Below are positions 19,235 to 26,132 of a stretch of 32,279 nucleotides of DNA, one piece after another (position 1 is the first letter of the stretch; the number at the start of each line of letters is the position of its first letter). This stretch comes from Candidatus Bathyarchaeota archaeon. GTDB taxonomy: Archaea; Thermoproteota; Bathyarchaeia; 40CM-2-53-6; DTDX01. A model generated the notes under the pieces. The model worked only from the letters and a program-made list of their open reading frames with translations, searched no databases and was not told where the DNA came from. Position numbers and translations under genes: made by a program. The stretch covers positions 1 through 32,279 of the forward strand of contig JAGTQY010000008.1 of the NCBI GenBank assembly GCA_018396815.1, given 5' to 3'.

Positions 19235-19960
19235 TTGGTTAAGAAATGTCCTGCATGTGGATTTGACAATAGAGATGATGCCAATTTCTGCGCTAATTGT
19301 GGGGTTTCTTTAGCAGCTCCACCCACAGTCAAACCGGTTCCTGCAGTAAGAGTTGTTTCTCCAGTTGCTCCTCCAGCTCCAATTCGAGTTCCACCACCAG
19401 GAATGTGCTATTACCATCCTAATTTACCAGCTGCTTATATTTGCGCTAGATGCGGAAGAGCAATATGCAAGGATTGCGCTAAAATTTACAATGGTTTAGT
19501 GCTTTGTCCTCAATGCTATTCGCTTGTAGCTGTACCTGAATATGTTCCTCCACCAGCTGTGCCAGCTCCTCCGCCACCACCAACTTATGCTCCGCCACCA
19601 CCACCAACTTATCCACCTGCTAGAGCTTTATGGGGTTTTATAATATCTCTTATTGCAGGTATATTAATCATAATTAATGCTGCGGCTTTGCTTTCAGCAG
19701 GTTTCTACGCTACTTTAGTTGGAATATTCCCGTGGATAAGTTGGTTTGGTGCGCCTCCGCCATGGCTTTTAGTTGTTATAGGATTAATTTTAGGTATAAT
19801 AGCATGTATAGGCGCATTATTAATGATACTTGGTTATGGAACAATAGGAAGCGTAGTAGTATTCCCAGCAGCTATAATCTCATTAGTGCTTGGTGGAGGA
19901 TTCGTAGCAGGTTTCGTGTTAGGCATAGTTGGCGGAATCATGGGAATGCTTGGCAGATAA
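19235..19960 (+). CDS. Membrane protein with zinc ribbon and B-box-like finger
   Basis: A TTG start sits behind AAGGAGG. In 241 residues the order is: a zinc ribbon (CPACGFDNRDDANFCANCG), a Pro-rich linker, a B-box-like finger with ligands in CYYH, CARC, CKDC and CPQC, a second Pro-rich linker, and a hydrophobic C-terminal 115 residues with about four membrane helices. Both zinc modules therefore face the cytosol on a membrane anchor. It opens the ubiquitin-like locus, 51 bp before the JAMM gene. A paralogue closes the locus, sharing 72 identical bases over the finger. An E3-like or adaptor role is inference; similar fingers occur in other archaeal membrane proteins. Confidence 0.85.
   Translation: MVKKCPACGFDNRDDANFCANCGVSLAAPPTVKPVPAVRVVSPVAPPAPIRVPPPGMCYYHPNLPAAYICARCGRAICKDCAKIYNGLVLCPQCYSLVAVPEYVPPPAVPAPPPPPTYAPPPPPTYPPARALWGFIISLIAGILIIINAAALLSAGFYATLVGIFPWISWFGAPPPWLLVVIGLILGIIACIGALLMILGYGTIGSVVVFPAAIISLVLGGGFVAGFVLGIVGGIMGMLGR
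19399..19470 (+). repeat. 72-bp direct repeat, copy 1
   Basis: This is identical, including synonymous positions, to 23974-24045. It encodes the first part of the B-box-like finger. After two mismatches the identity resumes for about 16 bases (ATTGCGCTAAAATTTA). Confidence 0.95.
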
Positions 19961-20011: not shown

Positions 20012-21616
20012 TTGAGGCTTGAAATAAAAGTGGTTTCACTCAAAGTTTCAAAAAATATTTTTGAAAAAATAATGAAGGATGTTAATGAAAGCCCAGATAA
20101 GAAAGTTGTAGGAGTTTTAATCGGTAAAATGAATAAAGATTCCCTAGTTATAGAGGATGTTGCAAGTGGTGAAGTTAAAAGAAACGGTGTAACTATCTCT
20201 TTAACTCCTACAGCTATAGCTAAAATAGCTGATAAAATATTAAAAGGAGAAATAAAAGGGAATATTATTGGATGGTATCATACTCATCCAGGATATAGCG
20301 TTGCTATGTCTAAAATAGACGAAAAAACTCAAAATATTTTAAGCCAGTTTTATCCTGAAACTATTAGTTTAGTTTTAGATCCTACATTTAAAGAATATAT
20401 GTTTTATACTTTAGATGAGAAAAAAAGGTTAAAACCTATTGAAGAAAATAAAATAAAGTTTTTTGGTTCAGGGGATATTTCGGAATGGAAGCAGCCACCA
20501 ATTAAGAAAAGCGAGGAGATTCCCCCATCAATTGAGCCTTCACCTTTTCCCCCTGTTAGAAAGCCTTTAAGTAAAAAACAAATTTGTGCTTTAACATTAA
20601 CCTTAATTTTAATTGCTGCTTTAATTTTAGGTTTTTTAATTTGGGGTTACGGGCAATATGGTGGAGGCTTACCTTTAATTAAACATACTCCCATTACAAA
20701 CGCTGTTGTAGGTTCAAGCATTACTCTTAAAGCTGAAGTTACAGGTGGCGTAGGTGGAATAGCTAATGTCACATTGTATTACGAATGGTCTAAATTTGTT
20801 AAAGCTAATAGTGAAATTTCAAGTGTTCAAATGCCTTGGAAATCTGCTTTAATGCTTCTTGTAGCAGCTGGAGGAAACGAATATGCTTATACTATACCAG
20901 GCTCTGAAGTTTTAGGTGATATAGATTATTTTATTGTGGCAGTCGATAAAGCTGGAAATAAAGCTAGCACATCAATTCAAACAATTAAAGTAGCTGATTT
21001 TGATATTTCCCCTTTAACAGATTCAATTACAGTTTATGTGGGAAGCTCAACATCAGTTAAAATTTTAGTTAAATCAATAAATGGTTTTTCTTCTAAAGTA
21101 AAGTTTTCAACAGCAACACCCCCATATGGAATTTTAATCTCTATTAATCCATCTGAAATTACTCTTTCACCAGACGGAAGCGCAGTAACAACATTAATTG
21201 TTTCAGTTCAATCAGCTCCAGGAACTTTCAGGGGAATCTTCAATTTAGAGGTTTATGGAGAATCAGGTGAAGCTAAACACTTAACTATTTTAACGGTAAC
21301 TGTTCCAAATCTAGATTTTTCTATAGAGCCTAAAACAAAAACCGTACCTAAAGGTGAATCCGCCTTATATAATATTAAGCTTGTTCCCTCCTTTAATTTC
21401 ACCGCTGATATAACTTTTACTTTAAACGGTTTACCTGAAGGGACTTCATGGGAAATTATTTTACCTCAAAATAAACTTGAATTAGCAAATTTGATAAATT
21501 TAATTTTAAAAATTGATACAACATCTAAAACTCAATCTGGAACATATAATTTAACAGTTATCATTGTTGGAGGGGGATTAAAACTTCAAGAAACAATAAC
21601 GTTAATCATAAAGTGA
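20012..21616 (+). CDS. Membrane-anchored JAMM/MPN protein with extracellular Ig-like region
   Basis: The N-terminal ~150 residues form an MPN domain. The zinc/active motif HTHPGYSVAMSKID gives H90, H92, S100 and D103, like Rpn11. The usual Glu three residues before the first Gly (ExxG) is K31 in KVVGVLIG, which looks like Rpn8. A basic linker and one membrane helix (about 190-212) follow, then about 320 residues of beta-rich Ig-like modules predicted outside. Rpn11-type enzymes cleave ubiquitin-like proteins from targets; activity here is uncertain without the Glu. The TTG at 20012 lacks a good ribosome site, and a GTG at 20030 behind a weak GAGG is an alternative. It lies 96 bp before the Ubl gene. 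Confidence 0.88.
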   Translation: MRLEIKVVSLKVSKNIFEKIMKDVNESPDKKVVGVLIGKMNKDSLVIEDVASGEVKRNGVTISLTPTAIAKIADKILKGEIKGNIIGWYHTHPGYSVAMSKIDEKTQNILSQFYPETISLVLDPTFKEYMFYTLDEKKRLKPIEENKIKFFGSGDISEWKQPPIKKSEEIPPSIEPSPFPPVRKPLSKKQICALTLTLILIAALILGFLIWGYGQYGGGLPLIKHTPITNAVVGSSITLKAEVTGGVGGIANVTLYYEWSKFVKANSEISSVQMPWKSALMLLVAAGGNEYAYTIPGSEVLGDIDYFIVAVDKAGNKASTSIQTIKVADFDISPLTDSITVYVGSSTSVKILVKSINGFSSKVKFSTATPPYGILISINPSEITLSPDGSAVTTLIVSVQSAPGTFRGIFNLEVYGESGEAKHLTILTVTVPNLDFSIEPKTKTVPKGESALYNIKLVPSFNFTADITFTLNGLPEGTSWEIILPQNKLELANLINLILKIDTTSKTQSGTYNLTVIIVGGGLKLQETITLIIK

Positions 21617-21712: not shown

Positions 21713-21955
21713 ATGAGGTTATTTATTCAAGCTCCAATAGGGCCGCAAACAGGTTTAGCTGAAATAGAAGTTATTCCAGACCATACAATAGGTGAAATTA
21801 AACAGCAGGTTTGCGCTTCCTTTGGTATAGATCCATCAACTGTAGCCTTAATGTATGGCGGTGTAATTCTCGATGATAATACTACTGTTGCTAAAGCAGG
21901 AATTCCTGAAAACGCTCAATTAGCTTTAATGCCTTTTAATATTGTAGGCGGCTAA
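21713..21955 (+). CDS. Ubiquitin-like modifier ending in Gly-Gly
   Basis: This 80-residue beta-grasp protein aligns with ubiquitin along its length: a starting strand MRLFIQAP, the IGEIKQQVCASFGI helix, the LMYGGVILDD strand-turn (ubiquitin LIFAGKQLED), and a last strand ALMPFNIVGG. The frame stops directly after the two glycines, so the C-terminus is ready for activation and needs no processing. Only K30 (near ubiquitin K27) and K61 could carry chains. The strongest ribosome site of the locus precedes it, suggesting high expression. The E2 gene begins 5 bases after its stop. Confidence 0.93.
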   Translation: MRLFIQAPIGPQTGLAEIEVIPDHTIGEIKQQVCASFGIDPSTVALMYGGVILDDNTTVAKAGIPENAQLALMPFNIVGG

Positions 21956-21960
21956 AAAAT

Positions 21961-22518
21961 TTGGATGTTGAACTTTTATATAAGGAAAAAAAAGCTGTTA
22001 ACCATCAGTTTCCTATGGTAACCGCCTTAAATGATCCTCCATCAATTTATGAAGGTCTCATTAGATGCGAAAAAGGCGAAGTTAAAAAGCTTGCTGAAGA
22101 AAAAATTTGGCCTTTCACAGAATACGTGAATTGGCATAGGTTTAGACTTGAATTACCTGGTGAATACCCTATTAAACCTCCTATAGTTACATGGCTTACT
22201 GAAATTTCTCATCCAAATATTGTTCCTAAAATTCCTGGAGCTGTATGTGTATCCATTTTAGGGGAAGGTTGGAAACCAAGTTTAAGATTAGCCTCTGTAA
22301 TAAATGCTTTATATTATCTTCTTTCAGATCCAAACCCTACTAATGTTTTTGATCATCCAAACTGCTTGAAAGCAGCTGAAGTATGTCGAAGATATGGTTT
22401 TCCAAAAATGGGTGAGAAAAAAACCGAGAAAACCGAAACCTTTAATGTTATTCCTATACCTTCCTCATGCGTAATAGAAAAACAAAATGAAATCCTTCGT
22501 TTCAGAATAATCGAGTAG
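21961..22518 (+). CDS. E2 ubiquitin-conjugating enzyme-like protein
   Basis: This is a UBC-fold protein of 185 residues starting at TTG, 5 bp after the Ubl stop. The E2 signature is clear: YPIKPPIVTWLT, then HPN (residues 84-86), the catalytic Cys C96 in GAVCVSIL, W at the next loop (GEGWKPSLRL) and LLSDPNPTNVFDHPNC. E2 enzymes accept the modifier from E1 on this cysteine and pass it to a target lysine. The C-terminal 30 residues after the fold are not recognised. Two consecutive TAG codons end the frame. No strong ribosome site is seen, so coupling to Ubl translation is likely. Confidence 0.93.
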   Translation: MDVELLYKEKKAVNHQFPMVTALNDPPSIYEGLIRCEKGEVKKLAEEKIWPFTEYVNWHRFRLELPGEYPIKPPIVTWLTEISHPNIVPKIPGAVCVSILGEGWKPSLRLASVINALYYLLSDPNPTNVFDHPNCLKAAEVCRRYGFPKMGEKKTEKTETFNVIPIPSSCVIEKQNEILRFRIIE

Positions 22519-22524
22519 TAGGAT

Positions 22525-23766
22525 ATGCAGGTTAAAGCTGAAATTCCATTATTTAAAGAAGTTTATATTGAAGTTAATGAAAATGAAAAAATTAAAGATT
22601 TAAAAAGGAAAATTTGCGAGAGACTTAATTTACCTGAAAATTTAACTCTTCTTCTTTTAAACGGTAAAGTTCTTCCAGAAAACTCTTTAATTAAAGAGTT
22701 TGATTTTAAATCTAAAGCTGTAACAATCGATTATTTATGGGCTAGATTTCTTCCTCTTTGGGGAGAAAAAGCTCAAAAAGCTTTAAGAGAATCTTCAATT
22801 ATTTTAGTTGGAGCTGGAGCTTTAGGAAATGAAATAGCTAAAAACCTTGCTATGCTTGGTATTGGAGAAATAATAATAGTGGATTACGATAAAGTAGAAT
22901 TCTCTAACTTAACTAGAAACGTGTTTTTTGATGAAAACGATATAGGTAATTTTAAATCTTTAGTGTTAGCTAAAAAACTTAAAAGTAAATACTCATATTT
23001 AAAAATTGAAGTTTATAATTGTAAAATTGAAGATTTACCTCTTGAAGTTTTTTTAAGATCAAACGTGATTATTTCAGGGTTAGATAATTTAGCTTCAAGA
23101 GTTTATTTATCAATAATTGCAAGTAAATACAAAATTCCATTGATTGACGGTGGAATAAACGGTTATCAAGGAAGAATTCAAGTTTTTATTCCTCCTAACT
23201 CTCCATGTCCCATATGTGCTATTCCATTGAAGGATTATGGTAGATTAATTGGGCTTAGAAATCCATGCAGCAACCCAATAATTGAAGGAACAGTACCTTC
23301 TCTTCCAACAGTTGCCTCTTTAGTTTCAGCTATTCAAGCTCAAGAAGCTGTTAAATTAATTTTTAACCAGAAAATACAAGAAAATATTGAAAAACCTTTA
23401 AATGGACTTTTAATTTTAGATTTAAGATTCAACCGTTACAATATTCTGGAGCTTAAAAAAAATCCTGAATGCATTGTTTGTGGAAGAAACGGTCTAGGAA
23501 AAAGCGAAACTAAAATAATTGAGGTTTCAATTGAAGATTGTTTAAACTCTATAGCTGAAATGATTAAAATCGCCTCTATAAAAACTGATTTAAAAGAACC
23601 GCATGAAATAACAGTTTTTAAAGAAAATTTTAAAGGCGAATTAATTAAGTTACCAGCTTTTAGTAAATTAGACGAGTATAAATTAAAAAAGGGAAGCTTA
23701 ATTAGGGCTATATTTAAAAACTTAAAGCAAGAAGATTATAAGGAAGTTTTAATTAAATTAATTTAA
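22525..23766 (+). CDS. E1-like activating enzyme with N-terminal ubiquitin-like domain
   Basis: The 413 residues begin with about 72 that look like a ubiquitin-like fold: KIKDLKRKICERLNL helix, LLLLNGKVLPENS, then a last strand AVTIDYLW. The ThiF/E1 adenylation domain follows, with GAGALG at 96-101, VDYDKVEFSNLTRN, and SGLDNLASR. A zinc site is formed by C228/C231 (CPIC) and C316/C319 (CIVC). C248 in RNPCSNP is the best nearby candidate for the thioester cysteine, but this is not certain. The last ~90 residues may be an E2-binding ubiquitin-fold domain. The gene starts 6 bp after the E2 stop. Confidence 0.9.
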   Translation: MQVKAEIPLFKEVYIEVNENEKIKDLKRKICERLNLPENLTLLLLNGKVLPENSLIKEFDFKSKAVTIDYLWARFLPLWGEKAQKALRESSIILVGAGALGNEIAKNLAMLGIGEIIIVDYDKVEFSNLTRNVFFDENDIGNFKSLVLAKKLKSKYSYLKIEVYNCKIEDLPLEVFLRSNVIISGLDNLASRVYLSIIASKYKIPLIDGGINGYQGRIQVFIPPNSPCPICAIPLKDYGRLIGLRNPCSNPIIEGTVPSLPTVASLVSAIQAQEAVKLIFNQKIQENIEKPLNGLLILDLRFNRYNILELKKNPECIVCGRNGLGKSETKIIEVSIEDCLNSIAEMIKIASIKTDLKEPHEITVFKENFKGELIKLPAFSKLDEYKLKKGSLIRAIFKNLKQEDYKEVLIKLI

Positions 23767-23803: not shown

Positions 23804-24187
23804 ATGGTTATATGCAGTTTTTGCAGTAAAAATAATAGAAGTGAAAGTAAATTCTGTTATAATTGCGGTAAACCTTTACAAAGGCAACCTGTAAAAGTTA
23901 ATGTTTTACTCCCAATTTTAAAAGCTTCAAGCGGTTTTATGGTTAAGCCTTTACCAAGAATAATACCTGGTGTAGGAATGTGCTATTACCATCCTAATTT
24001 ACCAGCTGCTTATATTTGCGCTAGATGCGGAAGAGCAATATGCAAATATTGCGCTAAAATTTATGGAGCATTAGTTTTTTGTCCTGAATGCTTCTCACGA
24101 ATAACCTTTATTCAACCAACTACTCAATTTGCTCCAGCTTACCCATCTTCTTCAATCTTTCAATCGCCTGCATCAATCTTTCCTTAG
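23804..24187 (+). CDS. Soluble zinc-ribbon and B-box-like protein
   Basis: In 127 residues there is an N-terminal zinc ribbon (CSFCSKNN...CYNCG), a linker, and a B-box-like finger nearly identical to that of the protein at 19235 (CYYH, CARC, CKYC, CPEC). The protein then ends in a short Pro/Ser-rich tail with no membrane segment. The paralogue has four helices there, so this copy may be truncated. Its last 68 bases overlap the 3' end of the opposite-strand gene. It follows the E1 by 37 bp, so it is likely in the same transcript. Role as adaptor or E3-like factor is inferred from position only. Confidence 0.8.
   Translation: MVICSFCSKNNRSESKFCYNCGKPLQRQPVKVNVLLPILKASSGFMVKPLPRIIPGVGMCYYHPNLPAAYICARCGRAICKYCAKIYGALVFCPECFSRITFIQPTTQFAPAYPSSSIFQSPASIFP
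23974..24045 (+). repeat. 72-bp direct repeat, copy 2
   Basis: Identical to 19399-19470. Flanking parts of the two genes differ at protein and DNA level, so the identity is confined to the finger. Confidence 0.95.
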
Positions 24188-26132
24188 TCAATCCTAAATC
24201 TTCAATAGCTTTAGGGATAGAAATTGTTCCTCCATGAGAAACAATATAATCCAAAACTTTTTTATCTTCCTCCGTTAAAAGTGAAGTTGAAGCAGCATAA
24301 GGAAATTGGTAAGCTCCACATTTACTACAGTATAAAGCGCCTTTAGGAATTTCTAAACCGCATTGAATGCATTTATTTTTAGGTTGTTCAGGCTTTAATA
24401 ATTTAGGGAAACCAATCCTAATAAGAGATCCAATTTTATTAAGAAGATGAAATTTTTTAGCATAAACAAAAATTATTGTAGCAACTGTTGCAGTTAAAAT
24501 TAACCCTATAATAAATAGAATTGCTGTTGAAGGATAAATTAAAGTTGAAGCTGAGCTTCCTGAAAATTTTTCTGAACCTAAAAACTCGACTTTAATTTTT
24601 ATTGAGTTTACTGAGGAAAATTTGCATTTCGAAAAAGCTTCACCAAAATTATTTGTTAAAACTGTTTCTTTATAAATTGGGTTATCATTAACTATAAAAG
24701 TGAATGTTAAAGAAGCATTTGAAATAGGGTTATTAAATTCATCTTTTAAAATTGCTTTAACTTGAATTTCATTTCCTTGAATAAAAGGTTGCGTAATTAA
24801 AGTTAAACTTGTTTTTATAGGTTCAACAGTAATGATGGTTAAAGCATAGCAACTTGAATAATTTTCGTTTCCCTCGTATAAAGCTTTAATTTGAATTCTC
24901 CCTTTATTTAAAGGTTTATATGTAAATTTAGCTTCACCTAAACTATTCGTTAAACCAGTTAAAATTTGAGAATCTGCATGAAGCTTAATAGTAGCCCCGC
25001 CTATAGACTCATTATACTCATCAATAAGCTTAACTTTAATTAAAGATTCTTCATTCACTTTTCCAGTTTCAGGTGCTTCAATTACAATTTTAGTTGAAGC
25101 TTTCTCTATAGTTAAAGTTATTGAAGAATTTGAAGCTTCAAAAATGTTTGATCCAGGGTATTCAACTTCAACTTTATATTTTCCAGCTTTAAAATTCGCA
25201 TTAAAAATTAAAGTTGCTTCTCCAGTATTGCTTGTTAAATTCATGCCTATAAAACTTGAGTTTAAATAAAACTTTACGGGTGCTTCAACAATTGGTTTTT
25301 CATTTACATCTTTAAGTTTAATAGTTAAAATTGTTGATTCTTTGTATTTAATTGTTGAAGGCGCATAAATATCAATTTTAACTTTTAATTTAACAACTTT
25401 AACTTGAATATTGAAATTTTCAATATGAGATATACCTCTAAAATCAAAATATAGAATTTGAAATGTTAATTGATGAATTCCCAATGCTGCTTCTAAAGGT
25501 GCTGAAACAAAAAGAAATGTTTCTAAAGTTTCTTCAGGTTTTAAACTTCCTAAACTTTTAAAATTTGGAGTCACAATTAATCCTGAAGATTCAACAACTT
25601 TCATTGAAATATTAAGCATTTCATCGTTTCCACCATTTTTAAAGTTTATTTTTAATTCAGAAGGTTTTTCAGCTCCAGCTTGAGCTTCAACAATTGAGAA
25701 ATCGAAATCTTTAATAAACAATTTAACAATAATAAGTTTAAATTGATAAACATCTTCTTGAATAGCTATAGTTTCATTAAGCCAGTAAAGCTCAATCCGC
25801 ATTAAATATTCTTTAGGTCCTTTAAGATTAGAAACAACTATTTTTCTTGAAGTTTCACTGTTTAAAGGACAGAACCAAGGTTGAGAAGCTTCATCATAAA
25901 CTAAAATGTTATCCGCGAAAACTGTTAAGAAAAATTTTGGGTCTTCAAAAGTTGATGTTACACCTTGATTCCTTACAGTTACATCAATTAAAATAGGTTC
26001 ACCATCATAAACTTTAGGGTTAAATTGAACATTTTTAAAGAAAGCTTCCTTAAAACCTTCAGTTTGAGTAATGAAACCTAAAAAAATTGTTGAAGCTAAA
26101 AGAAAAATTAAAAAAACTTTTTTAATGTTCAA
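24120..26132 (-). CDS. Receptor-like membrane protein: Ig-like repeats, zinc ribbon, winged helix
   Basis: This protein of 670 residues starts at TTG with a signal peptide (KKVFLIFLLASTIFLGF). The outside part holds a CARDB-like pair of modules and then three Ig-like (Big-type) repeats with the recurring TNxxGEA pattern. One membrane helix (TAILFIIGLILTATVATIIF) lies near residue 560. The cytosolic end has a zinc ribbon (CIQCG...CSKCG) and a winged-helix-like domain (VLDYIVSHGGTISIPKAIEDL). This looks like a surface sensor or adhesin with a nucleic-acid-binding tail; the function is unknown. It converges on the last gene of the ubiquitin-like locus with a 68-bp overlap. Confidence 0.78.
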   Translation of the reverse strand: MNIKKVFLIFLLASTIFLGFITQTEGFKEAFFKNVQFNPKVYDGEPILIDVTVRNQGVTSTFEDPKFFLTVFADNILVYDEASQPWFCPLNSETSRKIVVSNLKGPKEYLMRIELYWLNETIAIQEDVYQFKLIIVKLFIKDFDFSIVEAQAGAEKPSELKINFKNGGNDEMLNISMKVVESSGLIVTPNFKSLGSLKPEETLETFLFVSAPLEAALGIHQLTFQILYFDFRGISHIENFNIQVKVVKLKVKIDIYAPSTIKYKESTILTIKLKDVNEKPIVEAPVKFYLNSSFIGMNLTSNTGEATLIFNANFKAGKYKVEVEYPGSNIFEASNSSITLTIEKASTKIVIEAPETGKVNEESLIKVKLIDEYNESIGGATIKLHADSQILTGLTNSLGEAKFTYKPLNKGRIQIKALYEGNENYSSCYALTIITVEPIKTSLTLITQPFIQGNEIQVKAILKDEFNNPISNASLTFTFIVNDNPIYKETVLTNNFGEAFSKCKFSSVNSIKIKVEFLGSEKFSGSSASTLIYPSTAILFIIGLILTATVATIIFVYAKKFHLLNKIGSLIRIGFPKLLKPEQPKNKCIQCGLEIPKGALYCSKCGAYQFPYAASTSLLTEEDKKVLDYIVSHGGTISIPKAIEDLGLTKERLMQAIERLKKMGKLEQIE

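Follow-up and report, generated by a model that had tools for sequence, protein, structure and literature searches.

The E1 gene and its operon

An E1-like enzyme of a member of the Bathyarchaeia begins with a ubiquitin-like domain, which raises the question of where this domain came from and what it does at the N-terminus of an activating enzyme. The gene lies in the window (the whole stretch of 32,279 nucleotides analysed here), inside a same-strand run in the order Zn-ribbon/B-box, JAMM, ubiquitin-like modifier (Ubl), E2, E1 and Zn-ribbon/B-box. The genes of this run and the parts of the E1 are as follows:

19235..19960, + strand: Zn-ribbon/B-box-like protein with C-terminal TM segments (PF12773, PF00643, sequence)
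20012..21616, + strand: JAMM/MPN domain with TM helix and Ig-like ectodomain (PF01398, E 5e-13; alignment)
21713..21955, + strand: ubiquitin-like modifier, ending ..NIVGG-stop (PF00240, E 3.6e-11; alignment A2, 84% mean pairwise identity)
21961..22518, + strand: E2 (UBC) with HPN motif and catalytic Cys96 (PF00179, E 2.6e-18; sequence)
22525-23766, + strand: E1 ORF, 413 aa, ATG start
22525..22740, + strand: N-terminal ubiquitin-fold domain of the E1, residues 1-72, without Gly-Gly (PF00240, AF2 models, matches to ubiquitin, ISG15 and NEDD8)
22741..23490, + strand: adenylation domain (ThiF) of the E1, residues 73-322 (PF00899, MoeB/ThiF Z 31, invariant columns)
23206..23481, + strand: zinc-binding Cys quartet C228/C231/C316/C319 (invariant in alignment A1)
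23266..23268, + strand: Cys248, candidate catalytic cysteine in the crossover loop (invariant)
23500..23763, + strand: probable C-terminal beta-grasp (UFD-like) domain, residues 326-413 (AF2 secondary structure, UBA1/UBA3/SAE2 alignments)
23804..24187, + strand: second Zn-ribbon/B-box-like protein, in the slot of the Caldiarchaeum small RING E3 (PF12773, PF00643; conserved beside the E1)

With core genes, among them those of archaeal RNA polymerase subunits, on the contig and no plasmid match covering at least 80% of the E1, a plasmid or mobile origin of the locus was rejected; proteasome subunits are encoded in the same genome. A defence system was likewise discarded, since the PADLOC matches were generic only (E1 core, JAB domain). 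Among the Bil and E1-E2 defence proteins of PADLOC, only the adenylation core matched parts of the E1-E2 models, and the E2 is here a separate gene.

At the position of the conserved catalytic Glu, the JAMM protein of the window has Lys31 and those of genomes G001 and G020 have Arg (alignment; L129, L130, L133, L195); G014 and G076 lack the JAMM domain but retain the TM/Ig part. Modifiers in genomes without this Glu mostly end exactly at Gly-Gly and genomes with it mostly have extended modifier precursors, the exceptions to this pattern being G127, G020 and G045. The host genome also encodes a second, soluble JAMM (G000:C2:25138-25452, L197) in which both the Glu and the HSH..S..D motif are intact; the deubiquitinase activity may come from this protein. 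Another gene kept beside the operon across the order, on the minus strand (24120-26132), encodes a large protein that combines Ig-like repeats and a TM helix with a Zn-ribbon and a winged-helix-like part at its C-terminal end. Taken with the TM segments of the JAMM and Zn-finger proteins, this protein suggests a connection between the system and the cell surface.

The N-terminal domain has a ubiquitin fold and no tail

In Pfam, residues 1-72 alone match the ubiquitin family PF00240 with E 7.2e-9 and 35.7 bits, and the whole protein scores 33.6 bits, both above the curated cut-off of 25.4 bits. Rad60-SLD matches the same residues as well, and no match was obtained for the ThiS family, unlike in ThiS-ThiF fusions, which have Gly-Gly. 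In a profile search with the E1 family, positions 2-64 fall on ubiquitin chains in the PDB. The full-chain AlphaFold2 model shows a ubiquitin-type beta-grasp for residues 1-72 (mean pLDDT 87.5), with strands at 2-7 and 11-16, a helix at 23-34 and further strands at 41-45 and 66-70 (pLDDT ~78-97). Since the fold search with the whole model was uninformative on residues 1-36, the N-terminal domain (N-domain) was also folded and searched alone: residues 1-76 adopt the same fold as in the full chain (pLDDT 83.6), and the top matches of the isolated model are ubiquitin, ISG15 and NEDD8 (Foldseek TM ~0.8). Among the matches listed by VIA, these and similar domains reach Z 12.3-13.3 with an rmsd of 1.2-2.2 Å. 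The sequence-only reading of this locus had proposed a beta-grasp fold for about 72 N-terminal residues and named any other predicted fold of residues 1-72 as its refutation; the PF00240 score and the models, alone and in the full chain, bear the proposal out.

That reading had also described the domain as lacking Gly-Gly, and rightly so: the last strand (VTIDY) directly joins the start motif of the E1 (LWAR..), with neither a linker nor Gly-Gly between them. In the alignment of E1s with this domain (N-Ubl E1s), Gly-Gly is absent from all 16 and the last strand leads into DY(L/I/F)W(A/S)R. By its sequence the N-domain is not a conjugatable modifier, as a free or freeable C-terminal Gly-Gly is lacking. 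Its invariant residues are concentrated in the core and around the junction (P8, L26, K27, C31, L44, D69, Y70, W72 and R74).

Adenylation domain and C-terminal domain

ThiF (PF00899) spans residues 76-316 with E 1.2e-51, and the domain is nearest in structure to MoeB and ThiF (Z 31). The nucleotide-binding loop GAGALG occupies residues 96-101, its pattern G96-A-G-A-x-G101 being invariant in the alignment, as is Arg74 immediately past the junction of N-domain and adenylation domain. The ThiF domain, the GxGxxG-type loop and the zinc-binding Cys quartet place the protein among the E1/ThiF enzymes. Cys248, invariant in all N-Ubl E1s and in their bacterial relatives, is a candidate for the thioester with the modifier; the surrounding loop (247-257) is modelled with pLDDT < 50. 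UBA5 likewise has a cysteine in the crossover loop.

At the other end of the protein, residues 330-412 show the beta-grasp order of elements in the full-chain AlphaFold2 model, and PF00240 gave no Pfam match there. Structural alignments with UBA1, UBA3 and SAE2 (VIA) reach residue 413, but with an rmsd of 5-7 Å over the chain. The order of elements and the extent of these alignments make a UFD-like C-terminal domain likely, so that a ubiquitin fold probably lies at each end of the E1 (Ubl-adenylation-UFD); the C-terminal one had been missed in the sequence-only reading. This domain is missing from a Thermoplasmata relative (L040) and is fast evolving elsewhere.

Distribution and phylogeny

Relatives were recovered from the contigs when an alignment served as query, and none when the E1 sequence was used by itself. 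The survey covered the genomes of the host's order, a sample of 398 genomes of its phylum and the phylum of L040. The E1 is present in 14 of the 38 genomes of the order, each time with the N-terminal domain (14/14). The sole further carrier in the phylum sample is G483, of another class, whose E1 (L128) scores 30.2 bits against PF00240. The Thermoplasmata genome L040 carries the N-domain on a 322-residue E1 without C-terminal domain, and an N-Ubl E1 was found in none of the 291 other genomes of its phylum. The fusion is present in all E1s of this type found in the order and in two relatives beyond it, which answers the earlier call for a check of its spread among related archaea. E2 genes occur in 53 of the 398 genomes sampled.

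A tree built on the adenylation domains groups all 16 N-Ubl E1s into a single clade (SH-aLRT 99), with the Caldiarchaeum-type E1s (99) and the bacterial relatives (99) standing apart. A single gain of the N-domain is the simplest history, and the scattered occurrence outside the order suggests transfer.

Several relatives have modifier and E2 in one ORF (Ubl-Gly-Gly-E2, no intervening stop), namely L128:7572-8444:- (G483), L174:6232-7047:+ (G285) and L175:6552-7370:+ (G409). By analogy with ubiquitin-ribosomal protein fusions, the modifier would have to be cut free from these, presumably by the JAMM. In the Thermoplasmata genome, the E2 at L040:5181-5867:+ starts with a ubiquitin-like domain that is degenerate and has no Gly-Gly, and a separate modifier gene, ending GGKDE, is present as well.

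Origin and constraint of the N-domain

Among the profile comparisons (hhalign), the best was that of the N-domain with the operon's own modifier (E 5.5e-8), followed by the Caldiarchaeum-type C-terminal UBL (3e-7) and the Caldiarchaeum-type modifier (1.7e-6). Derivation from the C-terminal domain of the E1 itself was rejected, as no profile similarity was seen. In a tree of the short domains, N-domain and modifier are sister groups with SH-aLRT 87; the weak point is that this relation is drawn from 78 columns with long branches. Cys31 is common to all N-domains, all 16 modifiers and most Caldiarchaeum-type modifiers, and is absent from the C-terminal UBLs. An origin from a Caldiarchaeum-type C-terminal UBL is possible in view of its E value, but less favoured, the modifier being the source indicated by both Cys31 and the tree. 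The greatest similarity to the operon's own modifier and the shared Cys31 suggest that the N-domain arose by duplication of the modifier, fusion and loss of the tail. A relation to the modifier next door, as the sequence-only reading had assumed, is in line with both the hhalign and the tree results.

Mean pairwise identity is 0.45 for the N-domain, 0.29 for the C-terminal domain, 0.57 for the adenylation domain and 0.84 for the modifier. In the five pairs with measurable dS, dN/dS of the N-domain is 0.12-0.42; the domain is under purifying selection.

Possible function of the N-domain

We propose a compact UBA5-like E1, with one adenylation domain and a candidate catalytic cysteine in the crossover loop, that would serve the ubiquitin-like modifier of the operon. 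Residues 1-72 would be a former copy of the modifier, fused once in the ancestor of the N-Ubl E1 clade and no longer activatable without the Gly-Gly tail. The copy would now most likely be a fixed docking module that brings a partner of the cascade, most probably the E2, to the activated modifier. We infer both the docking role and the origin by duplication, and would give this proposal a probability of about 0.4. A docking module fits with a selected N-domain in an enzyme whose C-terminal domain evolves fast and has disappeared from one lineage; the persistence of the N-domain in L040 counts for it. The E2 is the most plausible partner because a ubiquitin fold binds E2 in other E1s, as is established for the C-terminal ubiquitin-fold domains of the eukaryotic enzymes. 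The N-domain would be analogous to these domains and may share their role or have taken it over. Since 15 of the 16 N-Ubl E1s have a C-terminal region at the place of the UFD, the latter has not been replaced in most of them, and the existence of a minimal E1 without either domain (L175) shows that an extra ubiquitin fold is dispensable for such a cascade.

The sequence-only reading had thought of the domain as a mimic of the modifier, and this idea fares poorly. Only 11 of 49 near-invariant positions of the modifier are kept in the N-domain, mostly in the core and at Cys31; no position of the E1-recognition tail is retained, and the position of ubiquitin Val70 is the invariant Asp69 (alignment by eye). 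That neither surface nor tail is preserved argues against a mimic competing for the site of the modifier. The same data weigh on an autoinhibitory or regulatory role, in which the N-domain would cover the surface that binds the modifier, either in cis or on the other protomer of the dimer, and would have to move or be displaced by free modifier. Its relation to the modifier and its attachment right before the invariant Arg74 speak for such a role, as does the equivalent N-terminal segment of MoeB-type E1s, which reaches the ATP site of the other protomer. Without a tail and a linker, however, the domain is unlikely to reach the adenylation site as the modifier does, and we regard autoinhibition as unlikely.

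We see a similarly low chance that the N-domain is purely structural, lending stability to the E1 homodimer or to the N-terminal helix without serving any particular partner: the missing linker and the invariant residues at core and junction would suit this, but the related Caldiarchaeum-type and bacterial E1s are intact without such a domain. Docking to something other than the E2 is improbable. Here the N-domain would bind the membrane-anchored JAMM and Zn-finger proteins or the proteasome and so place the E1 at the membrane or at a degradation machine, in agreement with the TM segments of the operon's JAMM and of one Zn-finger protein and with the proteasome subunits of the genome. Several genomes that retain the N-domain, however, have a degenerate JAMM domain or none.

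To return to an E2-docking module derived from the modifier, a wider formulation would be that a duplicated modifier was joined to its own E1, shed its tail and became a new E2-recruiting or E1-gating domain, which we consider conceivable, though rather doubtful. If true, the E1 ubiquitin-fold domain would have been invented a second time, independently and at the other terminus of the enzyme, and the N-domain would show a route from modifier domain to enzyme part. How E1s came by the ubiquitin-fold domain that recruits E2 is a question in the beginnings of ubiquitin signalling, and in the N-Ubl clade a ubiquitin fold has been added at the other end of an E1 whose archaeal operon has E1, E2 and Ubl complete. 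The variants that nature offers, some having and some lacking the C-terminal domain, and the Ubl-E2 fusions (L128, L174/L175) make the question testable with small recombinant proteins.

Comparison with known systems

Like the eukaryotic UBA3, UBA1 and SAE2, the window E1 combines an adenylation domain with a probable C-terminal ubiquitin-fold domain. To our knowledge, none of these enzymes, nor UBA5, has an N-terminal ubiquitin fold, and VIA aligns them to the window E1 from about residue 38 or 69 on. The nearest adenylation domains in the tree are those of bacterial E1-E2-Ubl clusters (Planctomycetes, Clostridia, Chloroflexi; L041-L116), whose neighbours include a Ubl and an HPN-type E2, as in the window; an N-terminal ubiquitin-fold domain was not found on these E1s.

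The ubiquitin operon of Caldiarchaeum subterraneum comprises Rpn11, Ub, E2, E1 and srfp; the E1 of this operon carries a UBL at the C-terminus and is a binding partner of the E2 (PMC5654768). The window shares the gene content and the order Ub, E2, E1, small Zn protein, together with the presence of a JAMM, the ubiquitin-type modifier and an additional ubiquitin-fold domain on the E1. The Caldiarchaeum-type E1s (relatives L169-L185), read beside E2 genes of the phylum sample, however, start directly at ERYDRQ without an N-domain and carry their UBL at the C-terminus, where that of L182 matches PF00240 (331-389), unlike the window E1. They also have an insert of ~60 residues at the catalytic-Cys domain, of which the profile alignment shows none in the window E1. 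In the main texts of openly accessible articles we found no report of a ubiquitin-family N-domain on an archaeal E1.

In bacteria, ThiF of the Campylobacter jejuni type has an N-terminal ThiS-like domain, and its operon encodes a ThiS-like modifier as a protein of its own (Iyer et al. 2006, PMC1779556). The host genome itself encodes an E1 with an N-terminal ThiS/MoaD-like domain (L137:3903-5228:+, G000:C1 about 383902-385227), which matches ThiS with E 7.9e-11 and keeps Gly-Gly (PIVGGG). As in the ThiS-ThiF fusions, a beta-grasp sits on the N-terminus of an E1-like enzyme and a separate modifier is encoded in the operon; those fusions, however, belong to the sulfur-carrier family and have no E2, whereas the N-domain of the window E1 is of the ubiquitin family. 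Whereas N-terminal ThiS-like domains on ThiF were known already, new is a tail-less ubiquitin-family domain on the E1 of a ubiquitin-type E1-E2 cascade.
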